The notes under the pieces were generated by a model. The model worked only from the letters and a program-made list of their open reading frames with translations, did not search any database and was not told the origin of the DNA. Made by a program: the position numbers and the translations under genes. From Gemmatimonadales bacterium (GTDB taxonomy: Bacteria; Gemmatimonadota; Gemmatimonadetes; Gemmatimonadales; GWC2-71-9), in the NCBI GenBank assembly GCA_036265815.1, contig DATAOI010000044.1:62001-126000 (forward strand): a DNA stretch of 64,000 nucleotides, read 5' to 3'. Shown piece by piece: positions 27,702 through 40,346 of the stretch. Each line of letters begins with the position of its first letter. Position 1 is the stretch's first letter.

Positions 27702-28637
27702 TCAGGCCCTTTGCCGGACCTCCCGCGCGCTCCGCCAGACCGAGAGCGCGATGGCACCGGCCAGCAGAGAGACCACCACCGCGAGCGACGCGACCGTGGG
27801 CAGGTGGAACCAGTGGCTCAGCCCCATCTTGAGCCCCACGAAGATCAGGATCAACGCGACGCCGGGCTTGAGGTAGACGAACTTGTCGATCATCCCGGCC
27901 AGCACGAAAAAGAGCGCGCGCAGACCGAGGATGGCGAAGACGTTCGAGCTGTAGACCAGGAAGGGGTCGCGGGTCACCGCGAAGATGGCCGGGATGCTGT
28001 CGATCGCGAAGACCAGGTCCGACCATTCGACCACCAGCACCACCAGCAGGAGCGGCGTGGCGAGCAGCCGACCGCGGCTGGTGCGGCAGAAGAAACGGCT
28101 GCCGTCGTAGGAGTCGGAGAACGGCAGCAGCCGGCGCGCCAGGCGGACCACCGGGTTCTTCTCCGGCTGGATCCGCTCCTCCTTTCCGCCCAGCATCCGG
28201 ATGCCGGTCAGCACCAGGATACCGCCGAAGAGGTACACGACCCACTCGAAGCGCTGCAGCAGCAGCGCGCCGAGCGCGATCATCACGAACCGCATCACGA
28301 TCGCGCCGAGAATGCCCCACTTGAGCACCTTCGCCTGCGCGGCCGCCGGCACGCCGAAGTAGGTGAAGATCAGGAGGAAGACGAAGAGATTGTCGACGCT
28401 GAGGGACAGCTCGATCAGATAACCGGTGTAATATTCGAGGGCGTGCCGCGATCCCTCCCGCCACAGGATGAACAGGCCGAATCCGAGGGCGAGGGCGATG
28501 AGCCCGAGACTCCAGCTCATCGCCTCCTTGAAGCCCAGCGCGTGGGAGCGCCGGTTGAGCACCCCGAGGTCGAGGACCAGCAGCCCGACCACCAGCGCGG
28601 TGAACCCGAGCCAGACGGCGGTCGGGTGGTGTCCCAT
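27702..28637 (-). CDS. TerC/Alx-family membrane protein, likely Mn2+ exporter
   Basis: 311 residues with about nine membrane segments. The TerC signatures 'ELSLSVDNLFVFLLIF' near 77 and 'VEWSDLVFAIDSIPAIFAVT' near 205 carry the conserved acidic residues thought to bind metal. Alx-type proteins export manganese. The ATG follows the htpX stop with no gap, so both are one transcript, and that transcript begins with a yybP-ykoY manganese riboswitch. This regulatory link strongly supports a manganese role. Three-base-perfect neighbours and normal length; no oddities. Confidence 0.92.
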   Translation of the reverse strand: MGHHPTAVWLGFTALVVGLLVLDLGVLNRRSHALGFKEAMSWSLGLIALALGFGLFILWREGSRHALEYYTGYLIELSLSVDNLFVFLLIFTYFGVPAAAQAKVLKWGILGAIVMRFVMIALGALLLQRFEWVVYLFGGILVLTGIRMLGGKEERIQPEKNPVVRLARRLLPFSDSYDGSRFFCRTSRGRLLATPLLLVVLVVEWSDLVFAIDSIPAIFAVTRDPFLVYSSNVFAILGLRALFFVLAGMIDKFVYLKPGVALILIFVGLKMGLSHWFHLPTVASLAVVVSLLAGAIALSVWRSAREVRQRA

Positions 28638-29474
28638 TTACCGGCCCGCGGCCATCGCCTCGAGCCGGGCCACCCGCTCCTCCGTCGGGGGATGGGTGCT
28701 GAAGAGCCCGGACACTCCGCCCCCGTGCGCGGCCAATGGATTCACCTGCGCCAGTGGCGCCGCGGCCGGGGCCACCTCCATCGGGATCCGGTGCGCTAGC
28801 GCGTCCAGCCGCCGGAGCGCGTTGGCCAAGGGCAGCGGGCGTCCCAGGATCTCCGCGCCGACCCGGTCGGCCTCGAACTCCCGCTGGCGGGACACCGCGA
28901 ACTGGATCAGCATCGCTCCGATCGGCGCCAGGAGCAGCAGGCCGAGCCGGGCAAAGGGGTGACCGCCCTCCTCATCCCGGCCGCCGCCGAACATGATGAG
29001 GTAGGGGAGATTACTGATCGCGCCCGCGACACCGGCGGCAAGCGTGGTGATGAGCATGTCCCGACTCTTCACGTGCGCCAGCTCGTGCGCCAGCACGCCT
29101 TCCAGCTCGTCCTGGGGCACGTACTTGAGGATCCCGGTCGTCACCGCCACCACCGCGTGCTCCGGGTTCCTCCCGGTGGCAAAGGCGTTCGGCTGCTCGT
29201 GCGGCGCCACGGCCACCCTGGGCATCGGGAGGCCAGCCCGCTGGCGCAGCCGGTCCACCATCCGGTAGAGCTCAGGCGCCTCCGCCTCGGTGACCACGTG
29301 GGCGCCGTACATCCGCAGCACCATGCGGTCGGAGAAGAAGTACATGATGAAGTTGAACGCGCCGCCCAGCAGCAGCGCGAGCAGCAGCCCCTGGGAGCCG
29401 CCCAGCAGCTGGCCCGCCAGCAGGAAGAGCCCCATGAGCCCGGCCATGAGGACCATTGTCTTGATGTTGTTCAT
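28638..29474 (-). CDS. htpX: HtpX-type membrane zinc metalloprotease
   Basis: 278 residues. Two membrane segments at about 5-20 and 28-46 precede the soluble domain with HELAH at 130-134 and the third-ligand region 'SRQREFEADRVGA' near 200; another hydrophobic pair lies around 140-195. HtpX degrades damaged membrane proteins during envelope stress. It is the first gene behind the manganese riboswitch and is directly followed by terC, which ties membrane quality control to manganese load here. GAGGAG lies just before the ATG. Call is secure. Confidence 0.94.
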   Translation of the reverse strand: MNNIKTMVLMAGLMGLFLLAGQLLGGSQGLLLALLLGGAFNFIMYFFSDRMVLRMYGAHVVTEAEAPELYRMVDRLRQRAGLPMPRVAVAPHEQPNAFATGRNPEHAVVAVTTGILKYVPQDELEGVLAHELAHVKSRDMLITTLAAGVAGAISNLPYLIMFGGGRDEEGGHPFARLGLLLLAPIGAMLIQFAVSRQREFEADRVGAEILGRPLPLANALRRLDALAHRIPMEVAPAAAPLAQVNPLAAHGGGVSGLFSTHPPTEERVARLEAMAAGR

Positions 29475-29503
29475 ACGCTCCTCACACCCTCAGTGGGGTC
29501 TAA

Positions 29504-29559
29504 CAAAAAGAGCGAGACCCCGTCCGCTCCGCTTTCGCGTTGGACGAAGGTCTCGCTCT
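29504..29559 (-). terminator. Riboswitch expression-platform terminator
   Basis: On the minus strand an 11-base perfect stem (29559-29549 with 29519-29509), extended inside by CGTCC/GGACG (29546-29542 with 29525-29521), is followed by TTTTTGTT. It lies 30 bases before htpX. Its 5' arm contains the last bases of the aptamer P1 helix, so aptamer and terminator exclude each other. Confidence 0.85.
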
Positions 29560-29672
29560 GGTGCGCGGGCAGGCGCTTGGCGCCACCCCGACCCTGCTGG
29601 ACCGTGCTCGCGCGGGCGAGCAGTCTTGACGATCCAGACGTCCGCCATCCGGCGGATAAGCTACTCCCCTTC
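29546..29672 (-). promoter_or_regulatory. yybP-ykoY manganese riboswitch aptamer
   Basis: Read on the minus strand, the aptamer starts with GAAGG (29672-29668) followed by the hallmark GGAGTAGC, giving the GGGGAGTAGC loop. It continues through a CGTCAAGACTG element, a GC-rich arm, and ends in GCGAGACCTTC, whose CCTTC (29550-29546) closes the P1 helix with GAAGG. These are the conserved blocks of the yybP-ykoY class, which binds Mn2+. The genes downstream are htpX and a TerC/Alx exporter, the latter a classic target. Binding metal should stabilise P1, block the terminator and turn expression on. Confidence 0.88.
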
Positions 29673-29682
29673 TTGTGCCGAA

Positions 29683-29711
29683 AACTTAGTCAGTTTCGAG
29701 GGGCCGGTCAA
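29683..29711 (-). promoter_or_regulatory. Promoter of the htpX-terC riboswitch transcript
   Basis: On the minus strand TTGACC (29711-29706) and TAAGTT (29688-29683) are 17 bases apart. Transcription would start near 29676, just before the aptamer. The remaining 120 bases up to the divergent lipoprotein gene hold nothing else clear. Confidence 0.6.
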
Positions 29712-38864: not shown

Positions 38865-40346
38865 GTGGTCGCCCCCGCGAAGGCACCGGCGGCCGCCGGC
38901 CAGTCTCCCGAGTTCATCCGCGGCATCGGTCCGCTGGCCGCCATCTCCCTGGTGGTCGGCTCGATGATCGGCTCCGGGATCTTCATCGTCTCGGCCGATA
39001 TCGGGCGGCAGGTGTCGGCCTGGGGGCCGGGGGCGCTGCTGATCGTCTGGGTCGTCACTGGCGCGATGACCGTGGTGGCCGCGCTGGCCTATGCCGAGCT
39101 TGCGGCGATGATCCCCAAAGCCGGCGGGCAGTACGTCTTTCTCCGGGAGGGACTCTCGCCGCTGGCGGGGTTCCTCTACGGATGGACCCTGTTCACCGTC
39201 ATCCAGACCGGGACCATCGCCGCCGTGGCGGTGGCGTTTGCCAAGTTTCTCGGCGTCCTGGTCCCGCTTTCGCCCGACGTGTTCCTGCGGCTCGGCCAGG
39301 TGCACCTGCCGGGGAGCAGCGAGGCGATCCAGCTCGGGCTCTCGCCCCAGCGGATCGTGGCGATGCTGATGATCGCGGTCCTCACCGTCACCAACATGCG
39401 CGGCGTGACCCTCGGCGCGGCGATCCAGACGGTCTTCAGTGTCGCCAAGATCGGCGCGCTCGCGGCCATCGTGCTGCTGGGGCTCACGCTGTTCCGGCAG
39501 CCCGACATCGCGGCCACCAATTTCTCCAACTTTTGGGGCACCGGGAGCTGGAGCCTCGCGGTGGTGCCGGTGATCGGGGCCGCCATGGTGGGCTCGCTCT
39601 TTTCGAGCGACGCCTGGAACAACGTGACCTTCGCCGCCGCCGAAGTGCAGGATCCGACCAGGAACCTGCCGCGGGCCCTCGCCATCGGCACCGGGACGGT
39701 GAGCCTGCTCTACATCCTGGCCAACGTGGCTTATCTCAACATCCTGCCGTTCTACGGCGAACCCAACGGCACCGACGTGCTGGCCCGCGGGCTCCAGTAC
39801 GCGGCGCAGGACCGGGTAGGCACCGCCGCAATCGAAGTGGCGATGGGTGCGGGCGCGGCGACGGTGATGGCGGTCGCGATCCTGCTGTCCACCTTCGGGT
39901 GCAACAACGGGCTGATCCTCTCGGGCCCGCGAGTCTACTATGCCATGGCGCGCGACGGGCTCTTCTTCGAGCGCGCCGGGACGCTACACCCGATCTATCG
40001 CACGCCGATATTCGGGCTCATAGCCCAGGCGGTCTGGGCCGCGGTGCTCTGCATCAGCGGGACCTACAACCAGCTGCTCGACTACGTCATCTTCGCGGCG
40101 CTGGTCTTCTATTTTCTCACCACGGTGGCGCTCTTCCGTCTGCGGCGGATCCGGCCGGACCTCCCGCGTCCGGTGAAGGCGTTCGGGTACCCGGTGCTGC
40201 CCGCGCTCTACCTGGTGGCGGTGGGCGGATTGATGGTGATTCTGCTGTTCGAGAGGCCGCTCTATACCTGGCCGGGGCTGCTGATCGTGGCCCTCGGGAT
40301 CCCGGTGTACCTTCTCTGGCGCAGAACCGGGACCCCGACAGGGTGA
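38865..40346 (+). CDS. APC-family amino-acid permease (second of three)
   Basis: 493 residues with about 12-13 membrane segments. Helix 1 has '[20 protein letters not shown]', helix 2 '[21 protein letters not shown]', and '[18 protein letters not shown]' lies in the middle, all as in the LAT/APC group. Substrate not known. GTG start directly follows the previous stop. The protein is close in pattern to the permease at 9208 but longer at the C-terminus. Confidence 0.88.

Follow-up and report, generated by a model that had tools for sequence, protein, structure and literature searches.

A leader of the yybP-ykoY manganese riboswitch class ahead of htpX-terC, and htpX as a recurrent target of this class in Gemmatimonadota

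In this study, we analysed a leader ahead of htpX-terC in a 64 kb stretch of Gemmatimonadales DNA (here called the window), which is very probably a transcriptional ON switch of the yybP-ykoY Mn2+ riboswitch class that wires Mn2+ excess to TerC and HtpX. Homology supports the assignment of the leader to this class, and a survey of the phylum indicates that htpX is a recurrent target of the class in Gemmatimonadota. The RNA class is already known; what appears to be new, as far as the literature shows, is the finding that the output of a Mn2+ sensor is repeatedly, and sometimes solely, a membrane quality-control protease. In our literature search, outside which most subscription papers lay, we found no report of htpX as a target of this riboswitch, nor of SPFH or OmpH genes as targets.

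Results

Layout of the leader and the genes behind it

The leader and the two genes that follow it comprise these features, all on the minus strand of the window:

29505-29673 (read 29673-29505), minus: leader with yybP-ykoY (Mn2+) aptamer and intrinsic terminator, ahead of htpX-terC
29683-29711, minus: promoter-like element, TTGACC (29711-29706), 17 nt, TAAGTT (29688-29683), based on conservation in relatives
29546-29673, minus: aptamer with four-way junction (98.7 bits with model R2, covariation, minimum free energy (MFE) fold)
29668-29672, minus: 5' strand GAAGG of P1 (the P1.1 switch helix), pairing with CCTTC at 29550-29546
29660-29669, minus: GGGGAGTAGC block, formed by the end of P1, the 5' strand of L1 and the start of P1.2 (GGGAGTA in 94/94 leaders checked)
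29641-29656, minus: P2 hairpin (7/7 pairs vary, with both-side changes)
29597-29637, minus: arm of P3.1, L3 and P3.2 (both-side changes in 5/8 pairs of P3.1 and 6/6 of P3.2)
29621-29631 (read 29631-29621), minus: CGTCAAGACTG block, located by sequence
29622-29629, minus: L3 loop UCAAGACU (CGTCANNAC in 90/93 leaders)
29560-29596, minus: P4 hairpin region, of variable length and sequence (part of the predicted aptamer MFE fold)
29546-29556, minus: GCGAGACCTTC block, formed by the 3' strands of P1.2, L1 and P1 and common to the terminator (GCGAGAC in 67/67 leaders)
29510-29558, minus: intrinsic terminator stem-loop (-34.8 kcal/mol, formed in the full-leader MFE)
29505-29509, minus: T5 tract of the terminator, located by sequence
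28638-29474, minus: htpX, a membrane M48 metalloprotease of 278 aa with the motif HELAH (PF01435, Peptidase_M48, 8.4e-35)
27702-28637, minus: terC/alx, 311 aa, adjoining htpX without a gap (PF03741, TerC, 8.1e-51)

A preliminary description of this DNA had reported the three blocks, P1 and the terminator with its T5 tract, and each was found where it had been placed. The window TerC is 46% identical to E. coli Alx, and the nearest relatives of the window htpX, from Gemmatimonadales MAGs, are at most 88% identical to it. The genome contains two M48 genes and a single aptamer match; the second M48 gene (40% identical) is without such a leader. A promoter had also been proposed just before the aptamer. 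The element is too weak for a consensus promoter scan, which returned no site; the same element with unchanged spacing (TTGAN / TANNNT) precedes the aptamer in relatives, and the pattern TTGA-N(19-22)-TANNNT is found in 22 of 67 leaders versus 0.25 in shuffles.

Stability and covariation

When folded, the 201-nt leader is more stable than shuffled versions of itself (z = -4.85). Across nine related loci that carry the leader ahead of htpX, the blocks are kept while the helices vary and the flanks diverge, and among nine sequences seven pairs have changed on both sides. The first model had collected 67 leaders, in which 24 of the 30 pairs of P1-P3 show both-side changes, including 4 of the 5 pairs of P1. 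Among these leaders 96.1% of the cells paired, versus 73.1% after shuffling and at most 41.8% with the 3' strands slid, and the covariation value was 0.542 versus 0.155 in shuffles and no more than 0.099 with slid strands. These values come from an alignment (A4) that was fitted to the structure and therefore favours it; we do not take the result as an artefact of the fitting, because the slid controls and the invariant blocks, which are unpaired, speak against this. Within the four-way junction, P1-P3 are backed by covariation and P4 by folding only. A chance origin of the leader element is excluded.

Assignment to the yybP-ykoY class

The Rfam model of the class, RF00080, did not match the window leader at any threshold, an outcome that the preliminary description had counted as a refutation. 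The same model also missed the E. coli alx leader (no match at E <= 10) and placed the E. coli mntP leader at 41.6 bits, under the gathering cut-off of 45, and both of these leaders are known Mn2+ switches. The negative result is uninformative for this reason, and a search judged by the Rfam gathering cut-off or E-value was dropped as the deciding test, since the two E. coli leaders fail it likewise. The printed RF00080 consensus stops short of GCGAGACC and the 3' strand of P1; the relative L006 reached 28.2 bits (E 7e-4) with this model. The results also show that the current Rfam model overlooks a large branch of the class that is rich in GC.

We used a covariance model, R2, made from the 67 Gemmatimonadota leaders only and containing no E. 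coli leader. R2 finds the mntP leader with 44.9 bits (E 5.5e-10) and the alx leader with 33.1 bits (E 7e-7), with noise reaching at most about 19 bits. The window leader, itself part of the model, scores 98.7 bits versus 17.5 bits for the next best match in the 64 kb; the latter, on the plus strand at 39307-39413, is a weak second match at noise level (E 0.017). The placement of the leader in the Mn2+ class, supported by homology, follows from the recognition by R2 of two E. coli leaders that it had never been shown and from the presence in the phylum of genes of Mn-exporter type (terC/alx, CDF efflux and P-type ATPase) under this RNA. A plain attenuator or terminator hairpin that resembles a riboswitch by chance might have been suspected from the lack of a match above the Rfam cut-off and from the strong GC bias, which makes hairpins common; such an origin is refuted, and to us scarcely conceivable, given covariation far over the controls, the invariance of the unpaired L1 and L3 and the recognition of the E. 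coli switches.

The metal core

The conserved L1 (GGGGAGUAG ... GCGAGA) and L3 (CGUCA..AC) of the class are both present in the window leader. The published metal core depends on L1 and L3 together with an invariable adenosine of L3, which makes an inner-sphere contact through its N7 (PMC6754395), and the sequences kept in the surveyed leaders (L1 94/94, L3 90/93) agree with this core. The candidate for this Mn2+-binding adenine is A29624, which would be equivalent to A48 in X. oryzae and A41 in L. lactis; the assignment is an indirect one because the window L3 falls short of the 9-nt form. This L3 is two bases shorter than that of mntP and of the Rfam consensus, and in this it is like that of alx.

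Deviating leaders were also seen in the phylum. In L159 (G071:C99:3046-3152), which precedes a gene for an SNF-family transporter, P1, L1 and P3 are intact and L3 is changed from CGUCAANAC to CGGCUAUGCC, possibly reflecting a switch of ligand or a loss of Mn2+ sensing. In the remnant leaders L173 (before terC) and L206 (before htpX), L1 and the strands of P1 are kept and the P3/L3 arm is gone; these may have decayed to an unregulated terminator or to read-through.

The short form of L3, together with the altered L3 of L159, could be read to mean that the lineage has kept the fold and senses another signal with it, either a different divalent ion or pH, as has been discussed for alx. We consider this unlikely, as the L1/L3 core is nearly invariant, R2 recognises both E. 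coli leaders, and the RNA lies ahead of genes for CDF, P-type ATPase and TerC proteins. In the window organism we infer Mn2+ as the ligand.

The switch

The unconstrained MFE structure of the aptamer alone (-63.4 kcal/mol) contains P1.1, L1, P1.2, P2, P3 and P4, while in the MFE structure of the full leader with its terminator (-90.2 kcal/mol) P1 is opened and the terminator is built; these energies leave out Mn2+, tertiary contacts and co-transcriptional kinetics. The 5' arm of the terminator is GAGCGAGACCUUCGUCC, which contains the whole 3' strand of P1, and this strand is re-used downstream in 67/67 leaders. The preliminary description, in which the CC of this strand was within the terminator stem, was right about the overlap and understated it, as the 5' arm takes in the complete P1 3' strand as well as the whole of GAGCGAGACC. 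In the L. lactis switch, Mn2+ stabilises P1.1, and otherwise the terminator takes the 3' segment of P1.1 (PMC11087558). Because the platform of the window leader matches that of L. lactis, the most likely action is that high Mn2+ turns the genes on. This ON logic, already proposed in the preliminary description, is supported by the folding and by the overlap kept in all 67 leaders, and we expect the same direction in cells.

The E. coli alx gene is described as translationally controlled, and by analogy the window switch might act as an OFF switch or mainly on the translation of htpX. The terminator, T tract included, stops 30 nt short of the start codon of htpX, and throughout the 67 leaders the 5' arm of the terminator coincides with the P1 3' strand, which makes an OFF-acting or translational switch very improbable.

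Leaders of this type in the phylum

We scanned 288 genomes from the order and 395 from the phylum and read the neighbourhoods, which gave 105 usable leaders. All counts are lower bounds, as strict filters lost some leaders; in the genome-wide scan with model R1, re-reading of 20 htpX genes recovered five full aptamers that had been missed and one remnant (L206). The tallies omit the weak matches L174, which precedes a different gene and has none of the blocks intact, and L171, which lacks the 3' block. First genes were assigned to families by Pfam and are htpX in 51 of the 105 leaders, terC in 29, an SPFH/Band-7 gene in 9, an OmpH/Skp-like gene in 5, an unnamed exported protein in 4, and a Usp, an SNF transporter, a CDF cation efflux and a P-type ATPase gene in one each; three loci were too short for a call, and for L264, L265 and L269 another gene may come before the named one in the unit. 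Genes of Mn2+ homeostasis were found directly downstream of the RNA in the form of terC, CDF and P-type ATPase genes. The view that htpX is unusual as first gene did not survive this survey, the arrangement being common in the phylum. The suggestion that htpX lies within the response gained ground, since htpX is so often the first gene and frequently has no terC behind it.

The window belongs to one family of the order (f1), in which terC comes after htpX in 19 leaders. As the two genes also adjoin in the window and terC/alx is the classical target of the class, htpX could be a mere passenger between the switch and terC. Against this, in 22 leaders, 19 of which belong to a second family (f2), no terC follows htpX for about 700 nt or more. 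In L012 the genes beyond htpX are convergent, which leaves htpX as the sole gene of the unit, and in the genomes G207, G392, G400 and G442 htpX and terC each have a switch of their own. That the switch serves terC only is thus largely refuted already by the single-gene htpX units, and we regard it as quite unlikely. In G419, terC is under the switch with htpX further down. At htpX genes outside the switch-bearing set (67 loci, 416 kb, mostly Proteobacteria and Nitrospirota) no aptamer was found, with R2 scores of at most 13.1 bits; as htpX of other phyla is without the switch, the link between htpX and the switch is lineage-specific.

Further leaders precede other genes. A Mn-type leader lies before a gene for an SPFH/Band-7 lipoprotein-like protein in nine cases (L156, L161, L166, L167, L169, L261, L262, L263 and L152), often as a second leader in genomes in which htpX is switched as well. 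Leaders with a GCGAGACCAC-type P1 lie ahead of or close to a gene for an OmpH/Skp-like periplasmic chaperone (L170, L265, L267, L268 and L269), and in L082, L172, L266 and L264 the leader precedes a gene for an exported protein that belongs to no Pfam family and shares the motif QTVINAPSxDQTPKGRVFALHESQ.

Discussion

On the basis of these results, the following sequence of events can be proposed. The leader RNA would be transcribed from its own promoter and fold to the four-way junction. When plentiful, Mn2+ would bridge L1 and L3 and lock P1.1 (29672-29668 with 29550-29546), so that the P1 3' strand is unavailable to the terminator and htpX-terC is transcribed; at low Mn2+, the strand would be pulled into the terminator (29558-29510) and transcription would halt. 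TerC would then serve in the export of Mn2+ or in its delivery to exported enzymes, and HtpX probably acts beside TerC in the quality control of membrane proteins and of proteins undergoing translocation.

In B. subtilis, SecDF, FtsH, HtpX and flotillins have been reported to co-purify with the TerC protein MeeF, and FtsH to be essential in a strain without both MeeF and MeeY (PMC10550928). YqgP-FtsH, another pair of membrane proteases, deals with a metal transporter, and there are links to Mn2+ excess (PMC7231995). HtpX may clear mismetallated proteins, as the preliminary description had suggested, may relieve the translocon or may obtain its own metal via TerC. That genes for SPFH, OmpH and HtpX proteins share this RNA would fit an output in envelope proteostasis. 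We put forward, as a proposal with about an even chance of being correct, that Gemmatimonadota control the quality of their envelope proteins through a regulon of several genes under Mn2+ riboswitches, in which HtpX, the SPFH/Band-7 lipoprotein-like protein, the OmpH/Skp-like chaperones and TerC are switched jointly or separately. If this is true, Mn2+ excess would be treated as a threat to membrane and exported proteins, beyond being an ion to pump out. With htpX, SPFH and OmpH targets on the one hand and the MeeF co-purification on the other, the so far loose idea of a connection between Mn2+ homeostasis and secretion quality control becomes directly testable.

Several known systems resemble parts of this arrangement. 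In the quality control of MgtE by YqgP-FtsH in B. subtilis, a system of membrane proteases is likewise important when Mn2+ is in excess, although the proteases are different ones and no riboswitch of a protease gene is reported in that study (PMC7231995). MeeY (YkoY) and MeeF of the same organism bring TerC and HtpX into one neighbourhood, and meeY is under a Mn riboswitch, while htpX is not reported to be under one there (PMC10550928); the link is however physical in B. subtilis and genetic in the window. The E. coli alx leader shares with the window leader the short L3 (CGUCAUUACG), the AAGGGGAGUA and GAGACCUU blocks and the control of a TerC protein, but its unit is without htpX and its platform is built differently. 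The closest known system is the yybP-ykoY riboswitch (RF00080) of the transcriptional type, as in L. lactis, from which the window leader stands apart as a GC-rich member of the class with a short L3, lying under or outside the reach of the Rfam model and with htpX as its first gene.
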